In this document: piece by piece, positions 4,337 to 21,673 of the stretch
Numbering within the stretch: the stretch's first letter is position 1
Layout: each line of letters opens with the position of its first letter
Source: Candidatus Woesearchaeota archaeon
GTDB lineage: Archaea; Nanobdellota; Nanobdellia; Woesearchaeales; GW2011-AR4
Assembly: GCA_016185805.1 (NCBI GenBank)
Contig: JACPMW010000005.1
Span: 1-35,529, forward strand
DNA: 35,529 nucleotides
Direction: 5' to 3'
The notes under the pieces: generated by a model
Database searches by the model: none
What the model was told of the DNA's origin: nothing
The model's input: only the letters and a program-made list of their open reading frames with translations
Made by a program: the position numbers and the translations under genes

Positions 4337-4588
4337 ATGGGCGAGCTTGACCATTACAGGAAAAGGATTGATGGCATAGATAAGAAGATTGCCAAGCTTT
4401 TAAACTCAAGGTTCTTGATTGCTGGAAAAATCTCAAGCTTCAAGAAAAGCAGCAAAATCATGGTTACGGACAAAAAAAGGGAATTGAAAGTGCTAAGCAA
4501 CATAAAGAAATACTCAAAAAGCCACCAAAAATTCTTGACAGTCATTTTCAAAAAAATCATAGCCTGCTCAAAAAAGCTGCAGAGATGA
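4337..4588 (+). CDS. aroQ: Chorismate mutase (AroQ class)
   Basis: YRKRIDGIDKKIAKLLNSRFLIAGKISSFKK...DKKRELKVL matches the AroQ RxxIDxxDxxLLxLLxxR...K...D..RE pattern. TATAAAAG at 4307-4314 suggests a leaderless mRNA. Confidence 0.87.
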   Translation: MGELDHYRKRIDGIDKKIAKLLNSRFLIAGKISSFKKSSKIMVTDKKRELKVLSNIKKYSKSHQKFLTVIFKKIIACSKKLQR

Positions 4589-4589
4589 T

Positions 4590-5435
4590 ATGGCAACTCA
4601 AAAGTTAATTCTTGGGTTAAAGCAAAAGGCCAAGGGCTTGAGGAAGGATATACTTAGTGTGATTTACAATGCCCAGTCAGGCCATCCGGGAGGCTCCTTA
4701 AGCGCGATTGATGTGCTGGTTGGCTTGTATTACTATAAGCTGAAAATTGATCCGAAAAATCCTTTATGGAATGATAGGGACAGGTTTATTTTAAGCAAAG
4801 GCCACTGCAGCCCTGCAATATATGTAGTTTTGGCTGACAAAGGTTATTTCCAAAAATCTGAATTGGATGGCTACAGAAAAATTGGCAGAATGCTGCAGGG
4901 CCATCCTGAATTAAACACGCCAGGAATTGATTTTGCCGGTGGCGCTTTAGGTCAGGGAATCTGCTTTGCTTTGGGCATTGCATTTGCCTGCAGGCTTGAC
5001 AAGAAAAACTGCAATGTGTATGCAATGATTGGCGATGGTGAATCACAAGAAGGTGCTGTGTGGGAAGCTTCAATGGCTGCCGCCTTTCACAAGATTGACA
5101 ATCTTGTCGTGATATTGGACAAAAACCAGGTGCAGCAAACGGGTAAAGTAAAGGACGTCATGGACATAGGGAATGCTGCCATGAAATGGAAGGCATTTGG
5201 GTGGAATGTCATTGAAATAAATGGCCATGATATGTCGCAAATTATCAAAGCTCTTGACAAGGCATCAAAAATGAAGAACAAGAAGCCAACCATAATAATT
5301 TCAAATACTATTAAGGGCAAGGGAGTTTCATTCATGGAGCTGAATCATAAGTTTCATGGAAAGGCTCCGAATGATGAAGAATATAAAAAAGCTATAGATG
5401 AAATTGAGAATATAGATGTTAAAAAGTTTAAGTAA
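4590..5435 (+). CDS. tktN: Transketolase N-terminal subunit
   Basis: SGHPGGSLSAIDVLVGLYY, GHCSPAIYVVLADKGYF, GDGESQEGAVWEA TPP-binding motif. Confidence 0.94.
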   Translation: MATQKLILGLKQKAKGLRKDILSVIYNAQSGHPGGSLSAIDVLVGLYYYKLKIDPKNPLWNDRDRFILSKGHCSPAIYVVLADKGYFQKSELDGYRKIGRMLQGHPELNTPGIDFAGGALGQGICFALGIAFACRLDKKNCNVYAMIGDGESQEGAVWEASMAAAFHKIDNLVVILDKNQVQQTGKVKDVMDIGNAAMKWKAFGWNVIEINGHDMSQIIKALDKASKMKNKKPTIIISNTIKGKGVSFMELNHKFHGKAPNDEEYKKAIDEIENIDVKKFK

Positions 5436-5436
5436 A

Positions 5437-6375
5437 ATGGAACAACAAAAGGCTGCAACAAGAGACGGATATGGGAAGGCTTTGCTAGAATTGGGCAAAA
5501 GAAACCCCAATGTTGTCGCTTTGGACGCTGACTTGAGCGACAGCACAAGGAGCGAGTATTTTTCAAAGCAGTTCCCTGAAAGGTTTTTCTCAATGGGGAT
5601 TGCGGAGCAGAATATGATTGGTGCTGCGGCAGGATTGGCATTTTCCGGCAAGATTCCTTATGCAAGCACTTTTGCAATTTTCAGCGAAAGGGCATACGAA
5701 TTTGTGAGGAATGTTGTTTCAAGGAATAAATTGAATGTCAAGATTGCAGGCTCCCATGCGGGCATATTTACAGGGGAAGATGGAAAGAGTGCCCAGGCAA
5801 TTGAGGATATTGCCGCCTATAGGGCACTGCCGAACATGGTTGTTCTGCAGCCATGCGATGCAGTCGAATGTGAAAAGATGGTATTTGCATTAGCTGATTA
5901 CAAAGGACCAAGTTACATGAGAATGCACCGCAATCCAGTTCCTGCCATTCATGGCCAGGATTATAAATTTGAGATTGGAAAAGGTGAAATTTTAAAATCC
6001 GGAAAAGATGCTGTGATTTTCGCAACAGGTTCCTTGGTTCATGAAAGCTTGAAAGCAGCAGATATTCTTGAAAAGGAGAATGTTAAAGTTTATGTTGTAA
6101 ATATTCACACGATAAAGCCGCTGGATAAAAATCTGGTTATTGAGCTTGCTAAAAAAACCAATTGCGTTGTCACGGCAGAAGATCACAATGTAATTGGAGG
6201 GTTGGGAAGCGCGGTTGCAGAAGTTTTAGGAGAAAATTATCCATGCAAAATGAAGATGATAGGGATGCAAGACAGGTATGGCGAATCAGGCAAGCCAGAT
6301 GAATTATACAAGAAATACGGCCTCGATGCAGAGTCAATTGCAGAAGAAGCCATGAAATTTGTAAGTAAGAGATAA
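5437..6375 (+). CDS. tktC: Transketolase C-terminal subunit
   Basis: ATRDGYGKALLELGKRNPNVVALDADLSDST, GIAEQNMIGAAAGLA. ATG at 5437 follows the tktN stop; the track start at 5416 would overlap tktN. Confidence 0.94.
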   Translation: MEQQKAATRDGYGKALLELGKRNPNVVALDADLSDSTRSEYFSKQFPERFFSMGIAEQNMIGAAAGLAFSGKIPYASTFAIFSERAYEFVRNVVSRNKLNVKIAGSHAGIFTGEDGKSAQAIEDIAAYRALPNMVVLQPCDAVECEKMVFALADYKGPSYMRMHRNPVPAIHGQDYKFEIGKGEILKSGKDAVIFATGSLVHESLKAADILEKENVKVYVVNIHTIKPLDKNLVIELAKKTNCVVTAEDHNVIGGLGSAVAEVLGENYPCKMKMIGMQDRYGESGKPDELYKKYGLDAESIAEEAMKFVSKR

Positions 6376-6408
6376 AAATAATATTCGTTCAATAAAATAA
6401 ATCACGAG

Positions 6409-6446
6409 AGCGACTTTTATAAGCAAAGTGATAAAAGTGAACCGCT
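6409..6446 (+). repeat. Inverted repeat upstream of transaldolase
   Basis: AGCG-ACTTTTAT-(10 nt)-ATAAAAGT-gaac-CGCT. Confidence 0.45.
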
Positions 6447-6501
6447 TTGAATGTTATATTTTAAGAAAAGGTTAAAAACAACAACGTATTAGTTGAATAA
6501 A

Positions 6502-7152
6502 ATGGAGCTATTTTTAGACACGGCAATACTTGATGAAATTAAGCGTGGAGCAGAGACCGGATTGATATCTGGGGCTACCACAAACCCATCATTAGCTGCG
6601 AAGGCTGGAAAAGACTACAATGATGTCTTGAAGGAAATCTGCTCAATAATAAAAGGCCCTGTCAGCGCAGAGACTGTTTCTCCTGATGCAGATGGCATGG
6701 TAAAGGAAGGTGTTGAATTTTCTAAAATAGCCAAGAATATTATCATTAAAGTTCCGATGACAGTTGAAGGCATGAAAGCCTGTCAAAAGTTAACTAAAAA
6801 AAATATTAAAGTCAATGTAACTTTATGCTTTTCCGCAAATCAGGCTTTATTGGCGGCGAAATCAGGAGCTTTTATCGTAAGCCCTTTTGTCGGCCGCTTG
6901 GATGATATTGGGGAAGTCGGCATGGATTTGATAAAAGACATAAGATTAATTTATAACAATTATAAATTCACAACACAAATACTTGTAGCTTCTGTCCGAA
7001 ACCCGATACATGTCCTTGATGCTGCCAAAATCGGCGCAGACATCGCAACAATGCCATATTCTGTGTTTGAGCAATTGTTTAAACATACATTAACGGATGT
7101 CGGGATTAAAAAGTTCTTAGAGGATTGGGAAAAAGTGCCGAAGAAGAGATGA
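6502..7152 (+). CDS. tal: Transaldolase / fructose-6-phosphate aldolase family (TalC-like)
   Basis: [75 protein letters not shown] at 6502 preferred over TTG at 6493. Confidence 0.92.
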
Positions 7153-9603: not shown

Positions 9604-9620
9604 CGCAACCTTTAAATATT
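9604..9620 (+). promoter_or_regulatory. Archaeal BRE/TATA promoter of the putative leader-peptide gene
   Basis: CGCAACCTTTAAATATT. TATA centre ~9614 gives an expected TSS near 9640, a few nt before ATG 9646. Confidence 0.6.
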
Positions 9621-9645: not shown

Positions 9646-9744
9646 ATGATGAAAAGGATAGAAAATTTGATGGCCCAGATTGGGTTCGCTTTCTACAGGC
9701 TGTTTTCAAGCTTCAGGTATTTCTTTTTTTACTTTAAATTTTGA
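9646..9744 (+). CDS. Putative Phe/Tyr-rich leader peptide (32 aa) of the aromatic amino acid operon
   Basis: Codon-by-codon translation: MMKRIENLMAQIGFAFYRLFSSFRYFFFYFKF*; 9 Phe and 3 Tyr in residues 14-32. Own promoter, hairpin at the stop codon, directly upstream of Phe/Tyr biosynthesis and pheST genes. Confidence 0.72.
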   Translation: MMKRIENLMAQIGFAFYRLFSSFRYFFFYFKF

Positions 9745-9773
9745 TTAGCTAAATTTTCTAAAAATGGCTAATC
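9743..9773 (+). terminator. Hairpin immediately after/at leader stop (attenuator candidate)
   Basis: GATTAGC-taa-ATTTT-cta-AAAAT-g-GCTAATC. An upstream direct copy of AAATTTT (9736-9742) could compete for AAAAT. Confidence 0.45.
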
Positions 9774-9821
9774 TTGTGTTGAAGCATGATAAATTTATAA
9801 AAAATGGCAAAAACTGACAAT

Positions 9822-9848
9822 ATGGAAACAAAAAGGTGGGAAATATGA
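9822..9848 (+). CDS. Mini-[15 protein letters not shown]-overlapping the DAHP synthase start
   Basis: ATG GAA ACA AAA AGG TGG GAA ATA TGA. TTTATAAA at 9794-9801 places a possible second TSS near 9822. Confidence 0.3.
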
Positions 9849-10858
9849 TTGTTGTGATGAGAAAAAATGCAAATGAAAGGCAGATTGCAAAAGTAATCGG
9901 GAAGATAAAATCCAGTGGCCTGAAATCGCATATTTCAAAGGGGGAGGTTTTGACAATCATCGGAATAATAGGCGATGAGAGAAAAGTCCCTGAATCCCAG
10001 ATTAGGGCAATGGAAGGCGTTGAAAAGATTATGCCTGTTCTCTCTCCGTACAAGCTTGTGAGCAGGGATTTTCATCCGCACAATAGGATAGTGGCTGTCA
10101 ATGGTGTTAAGATAGGAGGCAATGATATTGTAGTTATGGCCGGCCCATGCTCTGTTGAGAGCAAAGAGCAGATAATAGAAACTGCGAAACAAGTCAAAAA
10201 AGCTGGAGCAAAGATACTAAGAGGAGGGGCTTTCAAGCCAAGAACATCCCCATATTCTTTTCAAGGTTTGGGTGAGGAAGGCTTAAAATTGCTGAAAAAG
10301 GCAAAGGAAGAAACAGGAATGCCTATCATCACAGAGGTGATGGACACAAGGAATGTTCCTCTGGTTTGCAGATACGCTGATATTCTCCAGATAGGCGCAA
10401 GGAACATGCAGAATTATGATTTGCTCAAAGAAGTCGGAAAATGCTCACACCCTGTTTTGCTGAAAAGGGGATTGTCAGCCACCATAAATGAGTGGCTTAT
10501 GAGCGCCGAATACGTCATGTCAGAGGGCAACCATGATGTCATTCTGTGCGAAAGGGGAATAAGGACATTTGAGAATTACACAAGGAATACCCTTGACTTG
10601 AATGCAGTTCCAGCGGTAAAGGAATTGACCCATTTGCCGGTTATTGTTGACCCAAGCCACGGCACAGGCAGATACACTTTAGTAAATCCTATGAGCAGGG
10701 CAGCTGTGGCAGCAGGCGCAGACGGCTTGCTGATAGAAGTCCATCCTAATCCTGAAAAATCTGTCAGTGACGCTGACCAGACCATAAGCACAAAGAAGTT
10801 TGCAAAGCTTATGGATGAGCTGAGATTGGTGGTAAAGGCAATCGGAAGAAATATATGA
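9845..10858 (+). CDS. aroF: DAHP synthase (type I beta, N-terminal ferredoxin-like regulatory domain)
   Basis: [66 protein letters not shown] 9845 after SD GGTGG; the track used GTG 9836. Confidence 0.95.
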
Positions 10859-11469
10859 AATTTGTAATAGTAAGGCACGGCCAAACTTCGTGGAATGAGA
10901 AAAAAAGGTTCCAGGGAAAAACTGACACAGGATTATCAAAAAATGGGCTTAAGCAGGCTGAAATGCTTGCAAAAAAATTGTCAAAGGAAAAAATTGATGC
11001 CATTTACACAAGCATGCTAAAAAGGGCGATAGTGACAGCGGAAAAAATCCAGAAATTCCACAAAGAAGCCAGGATCATAAAGGCAAAAGAGCTGAATGAG
11101 CTGTCATGGGGGATTTGGGAAGGCATCAAGTTAAGTGAAGTCAAGAAAAGGTATCCTGAGCTTTATGAAAAAAGGGAAAAAAACAGGTTTAATTTTAGGA
11201 TCCAAAAAGGCGAGAGCCTGAAAATGGTGAAAAAAAGGATAAAAAAAATTTTAAGCAGCATAAGGAAAAAAGGCAATGGGACTGTTTTGATTGTCGGCCA
11301 CCTCAATGTCAACAGGGCTATAATTGGAACATTGATGGGCTGGAAAGATAAAAAAACATCATCCATAAGCCTGCATAATGCATCGGTAGTGGCCATAGAG
11401 GTAAATAAAAGCAGGGCTAAAATTTTGCGCGCTTCAAGCAGCATTGAAAATGGAAATTTGCCGTGTTGA
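10855..11469 (+). CDS. Histidine phosphatase / phosphoglycerate mutase-like protein
   Basis: [29 protein letters not shown], later [10 protein letters not shown]. 4-nt overlap with aroF. Confidence 0.9.
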
Positions 11470-12538
11470 TTTAAAGGAGGAAACTGGCAATTCATACGAC
11501 ATTATCATAGGCGCTGGCTTAATAGGCAATCTAGCCATAGAATTAAAGCAAAAGCCTGTTGCAAATGCCTATGCGATAATCACCGACTCCAATGTTAAAA
11601 GGCTTTATGGAGAAACGCTGCTGAAAAATTTTCAGGCTAAAAATCTGCATGCCCATCTCATCTCTTTTCCAGCTGGGGAAAAAAGCAAGAGCAGGGATAC
11701 AAAAGAAAAGGTGGAAAATGAGATGCTCAATCTTGGCTTCGGAAGGGACTCGTGCATCATTGCCCTTGGAGGTGGCGTTGTTGGCGACTTGGCAGGCTTT
11801 GTTGCAGCTACATATATGAGGGGCATTCCCTGCATTCAAGTTCCTACTACATTGCTTGCGATGGTTGACAGCTCCATAGGGGGCAAAGTTGCTGTCGATA
11901 CAATGCATGCAAAAAATGCGATAGGGGCTTTCCATCAGCCAAAAAAAGTCATTATAGATATGAATTTTCTGAAAACCCTGCCTAAAAAGGAGCTGGCAAA
12001 CGGCCTGGCAGAGATGATAAAGCATGCGCTAATCAGCGACAGGGATTTTTTCCATTTTTTAGAGAAGAATATTGATAAAATATTAAACTGTGATTTGGAG
12101 ACGCTTGAACAAGCGGTAAAAAGAAGCTGCGAAATAAAAATCCATATTGTTGAGGAGGATGAAAAAGAAAAGGGATTGAGAAAGCTCCTGAATTACGGCC
12201 ACACCATAGGGCATGCAATTGAATCGGCATTAAAATACAAAATAAGCCACGGTCAGGCAATATCCATCGGGATGAGCTATGCCGCAAAGCTCTCTGCAAA
12301 AAATGGATTTTTGGATGAAGGCTCTGTGATAAGGCAGAATAATCTGCTTGAATACATTGGATTGCCCCATAAGCTAAGCCACCGCAAGCTTAAGCCAAGG
12401 GAAATTTTAGAGCATATCCAATATGATAAAAAAATAATAAATAAAAAATTGAATTTTGTGCTGCTGAATTCCATAGGGGATGCATTTGTTTCTGATGATG
12501 TTTCAATGGAAGACTTAAAGGGAATACTTGGGGAATAA
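11450..12538 (+). CDS. aroB: 3-dehydroquinate synthase
   Basis: GGGVVGDLAGFVAATYMRGI, QVPTTLLAMVDSSIGGKVAV, LLNYGHTIGHAIE. ATG at 11450 (track TTG 11444). Confidence 0.96.
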   Translation: MEICRVDLKEETGNSYDIIIGAGLIGNLAIELKQKPVANAYAIITDSNVKRLYGETLLKNFQAKNLHAHLISFPAGEKSKSRDTKEKVENEMLNLGFGRDSCIIALGGGVVGDLAGFVAATYMRGIPCIQVPTTLLAMVDSSIGGKVAVDTMHAKNAIGAFHQPKKVIIDMNFLKTLPKKELANGLAEMIKHALISDRDFFHFLEKNIDKILNCDLETLEQAVKRSCEIKIHIVEEDEKEKGLRKLLNYGHTIGHAIESALKYKISHGQAISIGMSYAAKLSAKNGFLDEGSVIRQNNLLEYIGLPHKLSHRKLKPREILEHIQYDKKIINKKLNFVLLNSIGDAFVSDDVSMEDLKGILGE

Positions 12539-12539
12539 A

Positions 12540-14027
12540 ATGCTTGCAGCAGTCGTATTGGAAAAAACCGCAGAAAAAGCTATGAAAGCTGCTGAGAGAT
12601 GCAAAAAAGCTGACTTGATTGAGTTAAGGCTTGACAGCATAAGGGATTTAGGCCCTGCAACGCTGAAGGAATTGATAGAAAAATGCGGTAAGCCCGTTAT
12701 CGCAACCAACAGGAAAAGTAATGAGGGTGGATTTTTCAGGGGCAATGAGAAGAAAAGGGTTGGCCTATTAAAAACGGCGATTGATTTGGGGGCTGATTAT
12801 GCGGATATTGAGTATTCAAGCCAAGCTTCCTCAAAATTCCTGATTAAAAATAAAAAAAACACGAAAATCATTGTTTCTTACCATAATTTTAAGGAGACTC
12901 CGGATAGCATAAAAAAGACATACGGCAACATTAAAAGCTTAAATCCTGACCTGATTAAAATCGTGACACGGGCAAATTCTGCAGCTGACAATTTCAGGAT
13001 TTTTGATTTAATAAATAAAGCAAATGATGAAAAAAGAAAAATTGTTGCTTTCTGCATGGGACACTATGGGCAGTTTGGCAGGATTTTGGGCATTATACTC
13101 GGCTCCAAAATAGCTTATGCCTCAATTGAAGAGGGGAATGAGTCTGCAAGCGGGCAATTGACGCTAAATGAATTGATAAGTCACTACAAGCTAAGGAAGT
13201 TAAATAAAAACACGAAAATAGCCGGCTTGATAGGAAATCCAGTTGCACATTCCTGGTCCCATATAATGCACAATGAGGGCTTTGACAAGTTAAGGATAAA
13301 TGCAGTCTATCTGAAGTTTCAGGTTGACAAATTAAGGGAATTTATTGATTATTTTAAAAATTTGAACTCTCTTGGCTTTAGCGTCACAATACCTTATAAG
13401 ATTGAGGTTATGAAATATTTGGACAAGATTGATGAGAAAGCAGAAGAGATTGGCGCTGTCAACACAATAGTCATGCGAAACAAAAAATTGATTGGGTATA
13501 ATACAGACTGCCAAGGCGCAGTAATGGCATTAAAGGAAAAAGTAAGTCTAAAAGGAAAAAGGGCTGTTCTTTTAGGCGCAGGCGGCTCAACAAGGGCTAT
13601 TGCTTATGGATTAATGGAGGAAAACATGAATAATATAACCATATTGAACAGAACAATAAAAAAGGCAAAAGACATTGCGAATGATTTTGGCTGTGGTTAT
13701 GGCTCTTTGAGTGATTTGAAAAATGTTGATTATGATATGTTGATCAACACAACTTCAGTCGGCATGCATCCAAACGCTGATGAGTCAATAATACCTTCAA
13801 ACCTGATAAAAAAAAACTCTGTTGTCTTTGATATTGTTTTTAACCCTTCCAAGACACGGCTCCTCAAAGATGCTGAAAAGAAAAGCTGCACAATAATTCC
13901 AGGATTCGAGATGCTTGTTCAAGGTGCGATGCTCCAGTTCAGGCTCTGGACAAGCAAAAATGCGCCTGAAAAGGCAATGAAAAGAAAAGTTTTGGACTAT
14001 TTGAAAAATGCTGGCAATAAAAACTAG
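12540..14027 (+). CDS. aroDE: Bifunctional type I 3-dehydroquinate dehydratase / shikimate dehydrogenase
   Basis: AroD half: DLIELRLDSI, IVSYHNF, KIVTRA, AFCMGHYGQFGRI. AroE half: AGLIGNPVAHSWSHIMHN, GAVNTIV, NTDCQGA, LGAGGSTRAI, INTTSVGMHP. ATG at 12540. Confidence 0.95.
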   Translation: MLAAVVLEKTAEKAMKAAERCKKADLIELRLDSIRDLGPATLKELIEKCGKPVIATNRKSNEGGFFRGNEKKRVGLLKTAIDLGADYADIEYSSQASSKFLIKNKKNTKIIVSYHNFKETPDSIKKTYGNIKSLNPDLIKIVTRANSAADNFRIFDLINKANDEKRKIVAFCMGHYGQFGRILGIILGSKIAYASIEEGNESASGQLTLNELISHYKLRKLNKNTKIAGLIGNPVAHSWSHIMHNEGFDKLRINAVYLKFQVDKLREFIDYFKNLNSLGFSVTIPYKIEVMKYLDKIDEKAEEIGAVNTIVMRNKKLIGYNTDCQGAVMALKEKVSLKGKRAVLLGAGGSTRAIAYGLMEENMNNITILNRTIKKAKDIANDFGCGYGSLSDLKNVDYDMLINTTSVGMHPNADESIIPSNLIKKNSVVFDIVFNPSKTRLLKDAEKKSCTIIPGFEMLVQGAMLQFRLWTSKNAPEKAMKRKVLDYLKNAGNKN

Positions 14028-15261
14028 AAGGCATGTAAATGCCACGATAGAAGCGCCCTCTTCTAAAAGTTACACGCAAAGAGCTTTAATAGTTGCATCC
14101 CTTGCAAATGGGAAGTCCGTAATAAAAAATCCGTTGTTTAGCGAGGACACGTTTTATATGATTTCTGCGCTGAAGCAGTTTGGCGTCAGCATAGTTAAAA
14201 AAGGCAGAAATTTGATTGTGCACGGGACTAATGGAAACTTAAAATCCCCTGACAAGCCTGTTTTTGTCGGAAATGCCGGCACTGCAATGCGGTTTTTGTC
14301 GGCATTTGCTTCCCTTGCGAAGGAAAAAATAACAATAACTGGAGATAAAAGGATGCAGCAAAGGCCGCTTCAAGATTTGATAGATGCTTTGAAGCAATTA
14401 GGCGTGAAAGTTGAAAGCAATGGCGGCTGCCCCCCTGTGGATATTTATGGAAATTTTGCAGGCGGGAACGCCCGATTGAAGAGTGGCATAAGCAGCCAGT
14501 ATTTGTCATCTATATTGATGTGCGCCCCCTACGCCAAAAAAGATGTTGCAATAAGCATAGCTGGCAATTTGACCTCAAAGCCGTACATAGACATTACATT
14601 GGATGTTATGAAAAACTTCGGAGTTAACGTAAAAAACCATGATTATAAAAAATTCACAATAAGAAATACCGAAAAATATAAGCCAAGAGTTTATAAGGTT
14701 GAGGGAGATGCCTCGAGCGCGAGCTATTTCTTTGCAGCAGCTGCCATAACAAAAGGGAAGGTTATGGTAAAGAATATAAACCCGCGCAGCAAACAAGGCG
14801 ATATAAAGTTTTTGGACACACTTAAAAGAATGGGGTGTGGTGTAAGGAAAGGAAATGATTTTGCTGAGGTTAAGGGTGAAAGCCTCAAGGGCATTGACGT
14901 TGAAATGGGTAATATGCCTGACATTGTGCCCACGCTGGCTGTCACAAGCATATTCGCTGATGGCATGACAATAATAAGGAATGCTTCAAATTTAAGGTAT
15001 AAGGAGACTGACAGGCTGAAGGCATTGGCATTTGAGCTTAGAAAGATAGGCGCAAATGTTGAGGAAAGACAGGATGGCCTGGCAATAAAAAGAAAAAGGC
15101 TTCAAAAGGCTGTAGTTGAGACTTACAACGACCACAGGATGGCGATGAGCTTTGCAATAGCGGGGTTGGCAATCAGCGGAATCAGGATAAAAAACCCGAA
15201 TTGCGTTGCAAAATCCTTTCCTGATTTTTGGGAAAAATTCAGCTTGCTTTATAAGAAATGA
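14008..15261 (+). CDS. aroA: EPSP synthase (3-phosphoshikimate 1-carboxyvinyltransferase)
   Basis: PSSKSYTQRALIVASLA, GNAGTAMRFL, SSQYLSSILM, RYKETDRLKAL, YNDHRMAMSFAIAGL. Confidence 0.96.
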   Translation: MLAIKTRRHVNATIEAPSSKSYTQRALIVASLANGKSVIKNPLFSEDTFYMISALKQFGVSIVKKGRNLIVHGTNGNLKSPDKPVFVGNAGTAMRFLSAFASLAKEKITITGDKRMQQRPLQDLIDALKQLGVKVESNGGCPPVDIYGNFAGGNARLKSGISSQYLSSILMCAPYAKKDVAISIAGNLTSKPYIDITLDVMKNFGVNVKNHDYKKFTIRNTEKYKPRVYKVEGDASSASYFFAAAAITKGKVMVKNINPRSKQGDIKFLDTLKRMGCGVRKGNDFAEVKGESLKGIDVEMGNMPDIVPTLAVTSIFADGMTIIRNASNLRYKETDRLKALAFELRKIGANVEERQDGLAIKRKRLQKAVVETYNDHRMAMSFAIAGLAISGIRIKNPNCVAKSFPDFWEKFSLLYKK

Positions 15262-15770
15262 ATATTGCATTGATAGGGTTCAGGGGCGCGGGAAAAACCA
15301 CAATCGCTAGGCTGCTGGCTGCAAGGCTTGATAAGAAGCTAGTCTCTACAGATGAAGAGATTGCAAAAAAAACAAAAATGCCGATTGCAAAGTTTGTCAA
15401 AAGCTACGGCTGGGACAAGTTCAGGGAAGTGGAATCAGATGTGGTGGAATCCATAAGCGATTTTGATGAATGCATCTTTGACACAGGCGGCGGCATTGTG
15501 ATGAGGAATGAGAATATTATAAATCTAAAGAAGAGTTCCCTGATTGTGCTGCTGACCGCAGATGTGAACACTATAAAAAGCAGGATAAAAAACAGCAAAA
15601 GGCCTCCGTTGACAAACAGAGGGAATTGCATCGATGAGGTAAAGGAAGTTCTTCAGGAAAGGGAAGCAAGATACAAGAGGGCTGCCGATTACACTATTGA
15701 TACCTCAAGGCTGACTGCCGAGGAGGCTTGCGACTTGATAATGCATTATGCGCAAATGGAGCTGCAGTAA
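15258..15770 (+). CDS. aroK: Shikimate kinase, bacterial P-loop (AroK) type
   Basis: IALIGFRGAGKTTIARLLA, STDEEI, FREVESDVV, DTGGGIV, RPPLTNRG. Confidence 0.95.
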   Translation: MNIALIGFRGAGKTTIARLLAARLDKKLVSTDEEIAKKTKMPIAKFVKSYGWDKFREVESDVVESISDFDECIFDTGGGIVMRNENIINLKKSSLIVLLTADVNTIKSRIKNSKRPPLTNRGNCIDEVKEVLQEREARYKRAADYTIDTSRLTAEEACDLIMHYAQMELQ

Positions 15771-15771
15771 T

Positions 15772-16848
15772 ATGAACACCTTCGGCACTTTGTTCAGGAT
15801 AACTACATGGGGGGAGAGCCACGGCAAGGCCATAGGGGTTGTGGTGGATGGGTGCCCTGCCGGGCTTGAGATTGATGAAAAAGATATACAAAAAGAGCTT
15901 GACAAAAGGGCGCCTGGGCAAAGCGAGGTCATGAGCCCGAGGAAAGAAACTGATAGGGTGGAGATTTTGAGCGGAATTTTTGAGGGTATGACAACTGGAA
16001 CTCCAATCTCGATGATCATCTACAACAAGGATGCAGACTCCTCAAAGTATGAAAAGATAAGATACTTGCTGAGACCCGGGCACGCTGACTTTTCTTATCA
16101 AGCAAAATACGGCCACAGGGACTATAGGGGAGGCGGGAGGAGCTCTGCCAGAGAGACGGCTGCAAGGGTTGCCGCAGGGGCTATTGCAAAAAAATTGCTG
16201 GAGTTTCATGAAATAAAAATCATAGCTTATGTCAAGGAATTGGCTGGAATAAAATCGAGCAGGATGGATTATAGCCAGATATATGGAAATAATGTGAGGT
16301 GCCCTGACAAGAATGCCGCGAAAAAAATGGAAAAGGCAATCCTAAAGGCAAAAAATGAAGGTGATTCAGTCGGTGGGATTTGCGAGATTATCGCAATGAA
16401 TGTGCCTGCAGGGCTAGGCAAGCCAATTTACAGCAAGCTTGAATCTGATTTGGGGTCTGCAATCCTTGGCATCAATGCAGTCAAGGGAATTGAATTTGGC
16501 ATGGGATTTGAACTGGCAAGAATGAGGGGCAGCCAGTCAAATGACGAATTTATTGTAAAAAATAATAAGATTGCAACAAAAACAAACCACCATGGCGGCA
16601 TTTTAGGTGGTATATCAACTGGAATGCCAATCATTATGAGGGCTGTCGTAAAGCCTGCATCAAGCATATTGAAAAAGCAAAAAACAGTCAATTACAAGAC
16701 GATGAAGCGGGAGATAATTTCAGTTGAGGGGAGGCATGACCCTGCAACTATAGTCAGGTTCCCGCCGATTGCAGAGGCCATGGTTGCTATAGTGCTGGCT
16801 GACCACATGCTCATGGCCGGCAGGATAAATCCTGATAAGATGGGATGA
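15772..16848 (+). CDS. aroC: Chorismate synthase
   Basis: [68 protein letters not shown]. Start moved from 15748 to ATG 15772. Confidence 0.96.
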
Positions 16849-17690
16849 ATTCTATGAAAAGAGTTTCAGTTGGAATTATTGGCGGCACTGGAAAAATGGG
16901 GAGATTCTTCAAAAAATTTTTCGAAAAGAACAAATGCAAAGTCTTGGTTTCATCAAGAAGAACAAGGCTAAAACCAACAGAGTGCGCAAAAAAAAGCGAT
17001 GTCGTTCTTGTCTCTGTACCGATAGGCGCCACTTTAAAAGTCATCAGGGAAATAAGCCCTTGTATAAATAAAAAATCCTTGCTGATTGATACAACCTCCA
17101 TTAAAAAAGAGCCTGTCAATGCAATGCTGAAATATTCCAAATGCGAGGCTATCGGCATGCACCCTGTTTTCGGGCCTAATGTCGGTTCAGTAAAAAACCA
17201 GGCAATTGTATTGTGCCCGGCCAGAGGAAAAAAGTGGCTCAGGTGGATTGCCAATATTTTTGAAAAGAATGGGGCAAAAATCAGGATTGTGACTGCAAAA
17301 AAACACGATGAGATGATGTCCATAATTCAGGGGCTTAATCACTTCAGCACTTTGGCTGTCGCTCATGCGATGAAGCGGTCCGGAATAGCCATAAATGAAA
17401 GCCTTGAATTCGCAAGCCCTGTTTACAGGCTAAGAATGATGATGGTTGGGAGAATCCTAAACCAGAATCCTGAGCTGTATGCCGACATTGAAATAATGAA
17501 TTCCAAGAACAGGGAAATGTTGGACCTGCTGGAAAAATCCTCACAGCAGCTTAAAAAAATAATAGAATCAAAAAATAAAAGGGAGTTTGTGAAATACTTC
17601 AATGAATGCTCGCAGTTTTTTGGGGGTTTCAGGAAAGATGCTGAAAGGACAAGTGACTATCTCATAGAAAAGATGGTGGAGATGGAATGA
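16845..17690 (+). CDS. tyrA: Prephenate dehydrogenase
   Basis: VGIIGGTGKMGRFFKKFF NAD-binding motif, AIGMHPVFGPN, QGLNHFSTLAVAHAM. Confidence 0.92.
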   Translation: MNSMKRVSVGIIGGTGKMGRFFKKFFEKNKCKVLVSSRRTRLKPTECAKKSDVVLVSVPIGATLKVIREISPCINKKSLLIDTTSIKKEPVNAMLKYSKCEAIGMHPVFGPNVGSVKNQAIVLCPARGKKWLRWIANIFEKNGAKIRIVTAKKHDEMMSIIQGLNHFSTLAVAHAMKRSGIAINESLEFASPVYRLRMMMVGRILNQNPELYADIEIMNSKNREMLDLLEKSSQQLKKIIESKNKREFVKYFNECSQFFGGFRKDAERTSDYLIEKMVEME

Positions 17691-18496
17691 GAATAGCAAC
17701 TTTGGGCCCGGAAGGCACTTTCAGCCATGAAGCATCCTTAAAATACGGAAAAAGCTCGCCAATCTCATTTGCAAACACCATCAGGGATGTGTTCGGGCTT
17801 GTTGCTGACGGCAAAGCGGACATCGGAATTGTTCCTGTTGAGAATTCAATTGCAGGCACAATAGGTCAAACCCTTGATTTGCTGTTGGATTATAAGCTTA
17901 TGATTAAGGCAGAGGAGATTATGCCGATAAGCCATAATCTGGTGGGGTTTGGCAGGGCTAGCGAGATAAAAGTTCTTTACCTCCACCCGCAAACTTACGA
18001 GCAATGTGAGATTTTCATCAAAAAGAACTTTCCTAAGGCAGAGATATTGCAAACCTCCAGCAATGGGAGGTCTGCAGAGATTGTCGCAAATGCGAAAGAC
18101 AAATCAAAGGCATCCATAATCCCAAAGATTGCAGCCAGCATTTACAAGCTGAAGATATTGAAGAGAGATGTCCAAGACAGCAGGTTCAATGTCACAAGAT
18201 TCTTTGCCATTGGCAGGAATGATGGGAAAAAAACAGGCTATGACAGGACCAGCATTGCAATTTATCCCCAGGCTGACAGGCCAGGCCTGCTGCATGAAAT
18301 GCTTGGGGAGTTTGCAAAAAGAAGGATAAATTTGACAAAGATTGAGTCCAGGCCTTCAAAGGGCAAGCTTGGCGATTACGTTTTTTTTATTGATTTCCAG
18401 GGGCATAGGGCAGAAAAGAACTCTGCAGATGCTCTTAAAAATCTTGAAAAGAATTTTTTTGTCAAAATATTGGGGAGCTATCCGAGGAAATACTGA
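17687..18496 (+). CDS. pheA: Prephenate dehydratase with ACT domain
   Basis: IATLGPEGTFSHEA, GIVPVENSIAGTI, NVTRFFAIG, ACT GLLHEML...KIESRP. Confidence 0.94.
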   Translation: MRIATLGPEGTFSHEASLKYGKSSPISFANTIRDVFGLVADGKADIGIVPVENSIAGTIGQTLDLLLDYKLMIKAEEIMPISHNLVGFGRASEIKVLYLHPQTYEQCEIFIKKNFPKAEILQTSSNGRSAEIVANAKDKSKASIIPKIAASIYKLKILKRDVQDSRFNVTRFFAIGRNDGKKTGYDRTSIAIYPQADRPGLLHEMLGEFAKRRINLTKIESRPSKGKLGDYVFFIDFQGHRAEKNSADALKNLEKNFFVKILGSYPRKY

Positions 18497-18498
18497 AT

Positions 18499-20016
18499 AT
18501 GGAGATTAAAAAGCTGGCAGAAAGCCTTAACCCTGTTGAAAGAAAGGTTTTGAAAGTTCTTGATAATTTTGATTACTTTCATGACATCATGAAAGCCACA
18601 AATCTCAAGGATGTCGAGGTTTCAAGAGCATTGCAATGGCTGCAGAACAAGAATGTTGTCGAGCTGAAAGAGCAGCAGAAAGAAATGGTGTTATTGGATG
18701 AGAATGGCCTGAAATATCTGAAATCTGGTCTGCCTGAAAGAAAATTCCTTGATGCCATTGAGAGAAAAACATCAGTTTCCGAGATAGCAAAAAAGGCTGG
18801 ATTGAGCAATGAGGAAATTGCAATTTCCCTTGGCGCTTTGAAATCAAAAGCTGCAATTGAAATGGAAAAGGGCAAGGAGCTTCTGGTTTCAATAACTGGC
18901 AATGGAAAGCATTTGCTGAAGCATGGATTTCCTGAAGAGCAGTTCCTAAGGGAAATCTTTCCGAAGGAATTAAGCTCTTTGAATGAAGAGGAAAAGTCTG
19001 TCCTTGAAAATCTAAGAAAAAGAAAAAAAATCATCAGGGTTGAGCTGTCCAAAATAATAAATGTTGAGCTGACAGAAACAGGAAAGAAGCTGCTGAAGGA
19101 AAAAATTGAAGATGATTTGATTGAGAAATTAAGCCCTTCACTGGTAAAGGCAAGTGCGTGGAAGGGCAAGAAATTCAGGCGCTTTGATGTAAAAATCAAT
19201 GTGCCCTCAATTTTCGGAGGCAGAAAGCAGCACTACAGAAGATTTCTTGATGAGGTCAGGCAGAAATTTGTTGCGCTTGGCTTCAAGGAGATGACAGGCC
19301 CGATTGTCGAGACTGATTTTTGGGATATGGATTCCTTATTCATGCCGCAGTTCCACTCTGCAAGGGAAATTCATCAGGCTTATTATGTAAAGGAGCCGAA
19401 ATACGGAAAATTGGATGAAGCTCTTGTCAAGAGAGTGAAGGAAGCTCATGAAAATGGATATGAAACAGGCTCAAAAGGCTGGCGCTATGAGTTTGATGTG
19501 AAAAGAACGCATAGGCACATGCTAAGGACCCAGGGAACTGCATCTTCTGCTAGGATGCTTGCATCAAAAGAGCTGCAAATTCCGGGAAAGTATTTTGCGA
19601 TTTCAAGATGTTTTAGGTATGATATTATTGATGCAACCCACTTGTCGGATTTTTTCCAGACAGAGGGCATTGTTGTCGAGGAAAATCTGAATTTCAGCCA
19701 TTTGAAGGGTTTGCTTAAGATGTTTGCAGAGGAATTTGCAGAGACTGATCAGATAAAGATAACACCGGGCTATTTTCCATTCACAGAGCCAAGCGCAGAG
19801 CTGCATGCAAAGCATCCGGATTTGGGATGGATTGAGCTGGGAGGCTCGGGAATTTTTCGCCCGGAAGTTGTAAAACCCCTTCTTGGAAGGGAAATGCCTG
19901 TGCTTGCATGGGGCATCGGTATAGACAGGATTGCGATGTTCAAGCTCGGAATCAGGGACATTAGGCAGTTATTCAGCCATGACTTGGAATTTTTGAGAAG
20001 TGCAAAAATAGTTTAA
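18499..20016 (+). CDS. pheS: Phenylalanyl-tRNA synthetase alpha subunit
   Basis: FWDMDSLFMPQFHSAREIHQAYY, RTQGTASSARML, class II motif 3 GIDRIAMFKLGIRDIRQLFSHDLEFLR. Confidence 0.96.
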   Translation: MEIKKLAESLNPVERKVLKVLDNFDYFHDIMKATNLKDVEVSRALQWLQNKNVVELKEQQKEMVLLDENGLKYLKSGLPERKFLDAIERKTSVSEIAKKAGLSNEEIAISLGALKSKAAIEMEKGKELLVSITGNGKHLLKHGFPEEQFLREIFPKELSSLNEEEKSVLENLRKRKKIIRVELSKIINVELTETGKKLLKEKIEDDLIEKLSPSLVKASAWKGKKFRRFDVKINVPSIFGGRKQHYRRFLDEVRQKFVALGFKEMTGPIVETDFWDMDSLFMPQFHSAREIHQAYYVKEPKYGKLDEALVKRVKEAHENGYETGSKGWRYEFDVKRTHRHMLRTQGTASSARMLASKELQIPGKYFAISRCFRYDIIDATHLSDFFQTEGIVVEENLNFSHLKGLLKMFAEEFAETDQIKITPGYFPFTEPSAELHAKHPDLGWIELGGSGIFRPEVVKPLLGREMPVLAWGIGIDRIAMFKLGIRDIRQLFSHDLEFLRSAKIV

Positions 20017-20017
20017 A

Positions 20018-21673
20018 ATGCCGACTATAACTTTTTCACTGAAGGATTTGCAACATCTTGTAGGCAAAAAAATATCCGTTGAGGAGCTGCAGGAACTGGC
20101 CCACTACGGCAAGGGCGACTTTGAAGGCTATGACAAAGAAACAGATGAAGCCAAGATTGACTTCGGGGACACAAACCTTCCATATCTCTGGAGTGTTGAG
20201 GGTGTTGCACGCTTGATTAAGGGAATTCTTGGATTGCAGAAAGGCATTCCTGAAATAAAAGTCAGCAAAGGAGGTTACCAAGTTGTTGTTGACAAGTCTG
20301 TAATCAAATACAGGCCATATATTGCATGCTTCGCTGCAAAAGGCAAAAAGATGGATGATTATTTGATAAAGCAGATGGTGCAGCTGCAGGAGAAATTCTG
20401 CGAGAGCTATGGCAGGAGAAGGCAGAAAGTTTCAATTGGGCTGTATTCCTACAAAAGATTGAAATTTCCGGTGCATTACAAGGCTATTGAGCCATTGTCG
20501 ATAGAGTTCGTGCCTTTGGAATTCAAGGCAAAGATGAACTTAAAGGAGATTTTGGCAGAGCATCCAAAAGGAAGGGATTATGCATGGGTGCTTGAGGGAT
20601 TTGACAAATATCCTGTATTGATGGACGACAAGAATGAAGTGATGAGCTTCGTTCCAATAATCAATTCCAATTTTACAGGAAAGCTCGAGATTGGGGATGA
20701 AGACTTATTTTTTGAAGCTACTGGAATTGACGAGGAAGCTGTCAACCTAGCTGCAAGCATATTTGCTTATGCCCTGCATGACAGAGGCTTCCAGATTTAC
20801 TCTGTTGAGGCAAAATATCCTGACAAAAAAGTTATGATGCCAAATCTGAAGAATGAGTCTATACAGATAAAGAGCGAGCAGATAAAGCATTTGTTTGGAT
20901 TGGAATTAAAAGAAAATGAAATAAAGCAATTACTTGAGAAATCCCAATATGACTTTGCCAATTGGAAAGTGAAAATTCCTGTTTACAGGAATGACATCCT
21001 GCACCCTTATGATATAATAGAAGATATTGGCATAGCCTATGGCTTTGACAAAATAAAAGAATTGCCATTGACAACATTTACGCATGGCTCGACTTTCAAA
21101 TTGAATGAGTTCATTGACAAGGTAAGGGAAATCATTGTGGGGCTTGGCTATCAAGAGATTTTGAGTGCAATATTGGCCAACAAGGAACTGCTTTACAGGA
21201 AGATGAACATCAAAGATTTTGGCACTATTGAGATAGACGACTACATGTCCGAGACTTATTCTGTTGTAAGAAGCTGGATTTTGCCGAATTTGATGGAAGT
21301 TTTTTCAAAAAACAAGCATGTTGAATTTCCCCAGAAGATTTTCGAGCAGGGGCTTGTGAATTCAAGAAAAGGTGATGAAATTTTCGAAAGCCATAGGATA
21401 GCAATTGCTTCTTCCCATGAAAATGCAAACTACACAGAAATGAGGCAGATTTTGGATTATATAATGAAATGCTTTGGCTTGAGCTGTGATATAGAAGAAG
21501 CAGAGCATGATTCTTTCATTGAAGGCCGAGTTGGAAGGGCTATAGTGAAAGGCAAGAAGGTGGCTTATTTGGGAGAAATTTCGCCTGTTGTAATTACAAA
21601 TTGGGGCCTTGAAATGCCAGTTGTCGCTTTGGAGCTGAATTTGAGCGAATTGTGGGAAGTGATGGAAAGGTAA
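20018..21673 (+). CDS. pheT: Phenylalanyl-tRNA synthetase beta subunit (archaeal type)
   Basis: 551 aa; PTITFSLKDLQHLVG..., PVYRNDILHPYDIIEDIGIAYGFDKI, YLGEISPVVITNWGLEMPVVALELNL. Confidence 0.96.
   Translation: MPTITFSLKDLQHLVGKKISVEELQELAHYGKGDFEGYDKETDEAKIDFGDTNLPYLWSVEGVARLIKGILGLQKGIPEIKVSKGGYQVVVDKSVIKYRPYIACFAAKGKKMDDYLIKQMVQLQEKFCESYGRRRQKVSIGLYSYKRLKFPVHYKAIEPLSIEFVPLEFKAKMNLKEILAEHPKGRDYAWVLEGFDKYPVLMDDKNEVMSFVPIINSNFTGKLEIGDEDLFFEATGIDEEAVNLAASIFAYALHDRGFQIYSVEAKYPDKKVMMPNLKNESIQIKSEQIKHLFGLELKENEIKQLLEKSQYDFANWKVKIPVYRNDILHPYDIIEDIGIAYGFDKIKELPLTTFTHGSTFKLNEFIDKVREIIVGLGYQEILSAILANKELLYRKMNIKDFGTIEIDDYMSETYSVVRSWILPNLMEVFSKNKHVEFPQKIFEQGLVNSRKGDEIFESHRIAIASSHENANYTEMRQILDYIMKCFGLSCDIEEAEHDSFIEGRVGRAIVKGKKVAYLGEISPVVITNWGLEMPVVALELNLSELWEVMER

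Follow-up and report, generated by a model that had tools for sequence, protein, structure and literature searches.

A Phe/Tyr-rich leader peptide probably regulates aromatic amino acid biosynthesis in Woesearchaeales by a ribosome-mediated mechanism

The window, by which we mean the whole stretch of 35,529 nucleotides that was analysed, carries on its forward strand a short open reading frame (ORF) at positions 9646 to 9744 that encodes, over 32 codons, the peptide MMKRIENLMAQIGFAFYRLFSSFRYFFFYFKF, with 9 Phe and 3 Tyr. A second possible start lies at 9649. We consider it a leader peptide ORF on the basis of its conservation in relatives. Its putative sensor codons, TAT TTC TTT TTT TAC TTT AAA (codons −8 to −2 before the stop, 9718 to 9738), include the positions −3 to −5 at which aromatic residues are conserved and, as part of the TTTCTTTTTTTACTTTAAATTTTGA tract, a run of seven T at 9724 to 9730. 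Ribosomal frameshifting at T TTT TTA C was considered and rejected: the −1 frame stops immediately and the heptamer, as judged by eye, is not general.

The leader ORF is placed between an archaeal TATA box and the DAHP synthase (DAHPS) of an operon that continues with shikimate, tyrosine and phenylalanine genes and then with PheS and PheT, all on the forward strand. The first structural gene is the DAHPS, which has a ferredoxin-like regulatory domain (9845 to 10858; PF00793, PF18152) and is preceded by the Shine-Dalgarno sequence AGGTGG (9834 to 9839). A gene of the histidine phosphatase superfamily (10855 to 11469; PF00300) sits within the operon, between DAHPS and 3-dehydroquinate synthase (AroB, 11444 to 12538; PF01761, PF24621). 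Then come a 3-dehydroquinase/shikimate dehydrogenase fusion (AroD/AroE, 12528 to 14027; PF01487, PF08501, PF01488), EPSP synthase (AroA, 14008 to 15261; PF00275), shikimate kinase (15258 to 15770; PF01202), chorismate synthase (AroC, 15748 to 16848; PF01264), prephenate dehydrogenase (TyrA, 16845 to 17690; PF02153, PF20463) and prephenate dehydratase with an ACT domain (PheA, 17687 to 18496; PF00800, PF01842). The alpha (PheS, 18499 to 20016; PF01409) and beta (PheT, 20018 to 21673; PF17759, PF03484) chains of phenylalanyl-tRNA synthetase complete the series. Thus, a run of Phe/Tyr codons directly precedes genes that make these amino acids or charge tRNA-Phe, so that the genes under the putative control, DAHPS to PheA together with PheS and PheT, make or charge the amino acids that would be sensed. 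No match to the window was obtained with the Rfam models, and hence none to a T-box or to another known riboswitch or RNA family. Near the aromatic operon, at 4337 to 7152 of the window, we noted that a free-standing chorismate mutase gene (CM_2) precedes split transketolase genes and one gene of the transaldolase type, a cluster that likely serves the supply of erythrose-4-phosphate.

The predicted promoter (9605 to 9618) consists of a BRE-like GCAACC and the TATA box TTTAAATA (9611 to 9618), 35 nt before the leader ATG. Of 39 non-redundant loci, 32 have a perfect TATA box 29-39 nt upstream of the leader ATG; among the short ORFs that served as controls, 22 of 489 do. In Archaea, the TATA box usually lies about 25 nt before the transcription start. 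Given this spacing, the transcript is predicted to be nearly leaderless, with the leader ORF translated first; the DAHPS start, with its own Shine-Dalgarno sequence, follows the leader by about 65-300 nt. Between leader and DAHPS, the TATA-like TTTATAAA (9794 to 9801) could act as a second promoter; comparable sequences recur at several distant loci but are inconsistent within the genus.

How widespread is this arrangement was addressed in the order Woesearchaeales, where DAHPS of this type is present in 78 of 362 genomes. Five other genomes of the genus encode this peptide, which differs there by synonymous and a few further changes. A leader was scored as a short ATG-initiated ORF with at least 6 Phe, Tyr or Trp in its last 12 codons, located no more than 450 nt upstream of DAHPS. 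By this measure 42 of 87 DAHPS loci have a leader, while only 3 of 180 other genes with upstream gaps in the same genomes pass the scan; with a stricter cut of at least 7 aromatic codons the counts are 35/87 and 0/180. Two weaker leaders were accepted by eye, and six more lie further upstream, several of them heading operons in which DAHPS is not the first gene (for instance MYKMIVLERINAVLDEFFLDRSCYFYFW in genome G219). Overall, about 50 of the 78 DAHPS-bearing genomes have a leader. The same scan returned 5 of 79 bacterial DAHPS, and none of the 6 DAHPS loci examined in other orders of the class, a number too small for a conclusion. A pattern search with TRATTYTTYTCATTGTY allowing 2 mismatches was too loose and was discarded. 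At loci L042 and L039 (genomes G277, G279) and L030 (G058), a tandem pair of DAHPS genes stands behind a single aromatic leader.

What is conserved in these leaders is the aromatic run near the stop, their N-termini being unrelated between families. An aromatic residue is encoded at codon −3 in every one of 42 leaders and at codons −4 and −5 in 90%; all 42 contain both Phe and Tyr, and about half contain Trp. The comparison of relatives with control genes places the leader ORF itself beyond chance, as a short ORF with a run of product codons between the promoter and the first structural gene. These sequence comparisons make it very probable that the leader senses aromatic aminoacyl-tRNA in these archaea. 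The proposal of the first-pass annotation that a Phe/Tyr leader peptide would act as a ribosome sensor ahead of aromatic genes is thus borne out, as far as sequence can tell, by the relatives, the control scan and the placement of the TATA box.

In the window, a hairpin begins inside the stop codon of the leader (9743 to 9773): its 5′ arm, GATTAGC (9743 to 9749), overlaps the TGA stop (9742 to 9744) and pairs with GCTAATC (9767 to 9773), with a fold energy of −10.9 kcal/mol (z of about −2). Over 39 loci, the stretch of 60 nt that begins at the stop codon folds more stably than dinucleotide shuffles (mean z of −1.69, 16 loci below −2), and in 30 of 38 loci, where 14 would be expected, the main stem starts inside the stop codon or no more than 2 nt after it. 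The stop-codon hairpin therefore exceeds chance, in accordance with the first-pass annotation, which had tied it to the stop codon. The outer 7-bp stem is kept in all 6 genomes of the genus, with an A-U to G-U change in 3 of them. Between families the stems are wholly different (GCGCTTTTT/AAAAAGCGC in G020, AAACCTTTTGG/CCAAAAGGTTT in G155) while their place is kept, which is consistent with selection for a stem and its position and not for its sequence. Formal covariation, sought with MAFFT/RNAalifold inside genera and families, is weak, as the stems hardly vary in the genus and cannot be aligned between families. Four aromatic leaders with a clear codon run (G009, G019, G058, G295) are without a good hairpin.

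We also searched for the structures on which bacterial attenuators are built. Alternative partners for the hairpin arms, sought elsewhere in the leader or downstream at 37 loci, were at chance level (mean z of 0.03 to 0.18), and no mutually exclusive antiterminator and terminator hairpins were found. The first-pass annotation had proposed competing partners for the arms, and all the letters it named (the tract, the hairpin, AAATTTT at 9736-9742 and 9751-9757, GCTTCA at 9710-9715, TGAAGC at 9780-9785) are indeed at the positions it gave. Since arm partners are unconserved across loci, this competition appears specific to the sequence of the window: neither the inner ATTTT:AAAAT stem nor TGAAGC, the proposed partner of GCTTCA, occurs in the relatives of the genus. 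Its view of the element as hairpin-light fared better, as no bacterial-type terminator, that is a hairpin followed by a T-run, precedes DAHPS in these archaeal loci.

Altogether, we propose that Woesearchaeales probably regulate their synthesis of aromatic amino acids through the ribosome that translates this leader, the likely switch being the position of the ribosome relative to the stop-codon hairpin. From a TATA promoter, a nearly leaderless RNA would be produced whose first gene is a short Phe/Tyr (often Trp) ORF with the aromatic codons peaking at −3 to −5. A shortage of charged Phe- or Tyr-tRNA would stall the ribosome with codon −3 or an earlier one in its A site. Its edge would then halt at the stop codon, the hairpin would form behind RNA polymerase and the operon would be expressed. 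When the tRNAs are charged, the ribosome would reach the stop codon, cover and melt the 5′ arm, and then leave; the leader RNA would be open and the transcript lost before DAHPS. This loss would occur, in the most tentative step of the model, by premature cleavage and termination by FttA (aCPSF1) on the U-rich leader RNA, with no terminator hairpin.

The geometry is compatible with this scheme. In toeprinting, the leading edge of the ribosome lies about 15 nt past the first base of the P site. With codon −3 in the A site, this puts the edge at the last base of the stop codon, and nothing hinders the hairpin from forming; once the stop codon has entered the A site, the 5′ arm lies under the ribosome. 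The match between the invariably aromatic codon −3 and the start of the stem is the strongest hint to such a switch. We infer the direction of the switch, as well as the route from hairpin to expression, which may pass through FttA termination, mRNA decay or another process. The hairpin could re-form once the ribosome is released, a point that we count against the model.

Premature FttA termination is the output that we prefer, for three reasons. First, archaeal termination needs no terminator hairpin, and aCPSF1 cleaves downstream of U-rich tracts (PMC7515710), U-rich RNA being required at −30 to −36 of the FttA site (PMC11616081). Second, FttA and a coupled ribosome were proposed to be mutually exclusive on RNA polymerase (PMC11616081; PMC8116511). 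Finally, FttA is encoded, above the cut-off, in 18 of 20 genomes of the order, three genomes of the same genus being positive; no FttA was detected in the genome to which the window belongs, an assembly 86% complete.

A further element follows the hairpin. CATTGT is present there in 11 of 39 loci against 0.8 expected; in the window, the position that carries CATTGTY in relatives (9774 to 9785) holds the degenerate TTGTGTTGAAGC, with TTGTGTT in place of the motif. A general gene-end signal was considered and rejected, as CATTGT was seen at only 1 of 56 and 1 of 123 ordinary gene ends. CATTGTT or CATTGTC also lies 6-9 nt past the stop in leaders of two other types, Trp (G153, G277) and His (G249). 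These two types were chosen post hoc, with the TATA rule as an aid. The Trp-type are TATA-positioned short ORFs in which Trp codons stand shortly before the stop; almost all precede trpE or a trp-linked DAHPS, and their endings are LWTWC, SWRW, NWRWN, NWC, YSWY, PWHR, FWCFWE, NNWQL, ILWK and RPSW (loci L141, L060, L063, L034, L031, L143, L153, L158, L159, L165). The His-type precede his genes and read, up to the stop codon, ASHHHH (L171, minus strand, 612-671, in G249, followed by TTTTTCTCATTGTC), MNRVGYLHHH (L110, G310), CIHHR (L129, G058) and DCIHHQGS (L122, G153). Trp- and His-type leaders have no strong hairpin. We regard these sequence resemblances, including the CATTGTY shared by some, as leads. 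They allow a wider and much more tentative proposal: in archaeal attenuation of aromatic, Trp and His operons, the position of the ribosome on the leader would decide on termination by FttA, a CPSF73/INTS11-type nuclease, and a lone stop-codon hairpin together with CAUUGUY would replace the terminator/antiterminator pair.

The first-pass annotation favoured a different switch, in which the Phe codons, as an oligo-T run, double as the terminator: a stalled ribosome would cover the run, and a departing one would expose it. The last 24 nt of aromatic leaders are indeed 60% T, in line with the need of aCPSF1/FttA for U-rich RNA (PMC7515710, PMC11616081) and with the presence of FttA in the order. 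Moreover, in Trp- and His-type leaders, which are not built of U-rich codons, the mean T content immediately past the stop exceeds that of aromatic leaders (0.48 vs 0.31), although this comparison is post hoc with n=14. Against a null in which synonymous codons were resampled with each genome's own usage, selection for the tract was not apparent: the longest T-run averages 5.8 (6.5 expected), runs of at least 8 T are rarer than expected (2 vs 7.3), and the counts of TTT (92 vs 87 ± 5) and TAT (39 vs 35.5 ± 3.3) are close to expectation. An apparent excess of TAT and TTT, obtained with a noisier codon baseline, was gone with a cleaner one. In the GC-rich relative G230 the sensor run is TTC-rich (TTC TTC GGG TTT TTC TTC TAT), and a terminator made of the codons alone leaves the hairpin without a role. 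The oligo-T run is a by-product of Phe/Tyr codons that selection has not lengthened, and the tract as a selected feature has to be abandoned; the run as the terminator itself is a possible but doubtful reading. As aromatic codons are U-rich by nature and FttA acts on U-rich RNA, the run may nevertheless be used by aCPSF1/FttA when exposed.

RNA stability or ribosome pausing as alternative outputs are live rivals to FttA termination. The hairpin could block a nuclease, or act as a roadblock that prolongs the pause of the ribosome at codons −3 to −5, and not affect transcription. The stem stands precisely where a ribosome that decodes codon −3 has its edge and, with no conserved alternative pairing, a lone hairpin must act by itself. 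However, neither effect alone explains how the operon is switched, and we judge it somewhat unlikely that the hairpin works in this way only. Control of translation, with leader RNA masking the DAHPS ribosome-binding site unless a ribosome stalls in the leader, is improbable. With the ribosome stalled, the site is more open than with the ribosome at the stop in 10 loci and less open in 3, but mean openness hardly differs (0.44 vs 0.39) and, over 39 loci, the site pairs with the leader region no more than chance would give (mean z of 0.05); in the window, the leader region does not sequester the AGGTGG of DAHPS.

Outside the order, the closest relatives of this DAHPS are bacterial, which suggests past exchange of DAHPS with Bacteria. 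Aromatic leaders precede DAHPS in L203 (Calditrichota), L249 and L276 (Clostridia) and L278 (Desulfuromusa), apparently as ordinary bacterial attenuators; the L203 enzyme is 63% identical and its leader is MASTERLNHFFGFYFGYYYWTQ. The archaeal leader could accordingly be a non-working leftover of an attenuated bacterial operon gained by gene transfer. This is very unlikely, given that the leader is kept across more than 30 families of the order while its N-termini and stems have turned over, which argues for upkeep in Archaea, and given its archaeal TATA box at a fixed spacing and its different RNA layout, a stop-codon hairpin in place of hairpin and T-run. That the ORF encodes a functional small peptide is the least credible explanation of all: the product is hydrophobic and by all appearances translated, but families share no more of it than the aromatic codons near the stop, the rest being unrelated.

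Leader-peptide attenuation is a kind of regulation known from Bacteria, for which pheL and pheM, the leader attenuators of the phe and pheST operons of E. coli, are examples. Like these, the archaeal leader ORF is short, has a Phe-rich run ahead of its stop, lies upstream of Phe biosynthesis or PheRS genes, and would sense Phe-tRNA. Unlike them, archaeal leaders have a TATA promoter, a nearly leaderless start and a stem starting at the stop codon, and are without conserved alternative structures or a hairpin and T-run terminator. The same difference sets them apart from the four bacterial leaders above, with which they have in common the downstream gene family and the kind of sensor run: all four have a hairpin and then a T-run just before DAHPS. 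Among known regulators of archaeal aromatic and trp genes, TrpY of Methanothermobacter and Tar/TK0271 of Thermococcus control the same pathways as DNA-binding proteins with no leader peptide (PMC6737238). Termination by aCPSF1/FttA, described at gene ends and inside operons, could supply the hairpin-independent terminator on ribosome-free U-rich RNA (PMC7515710, PMC11616081, PMC8116511). Our literature search, which covered mostly open-access papers and is no proof of absence, returned no report of leader-peptide attenuation in Archaea nor of leader-peptide control of aCPSF1/FttA termination, so that the archaeal form, without the bacterial terminator, is apparently undescribed as far as we found. 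If the proposed role holds, an aromatic leader conserved in a whole archaeal order would place the sensing of aminoacyl-tRNA by the translating ribosome in both prokaryotic domains. It would also offer a natural case for archaeal transcription-translation coupling, in which RNA polymerase is proposed to accommodate either FttA or the ribosome but not both.
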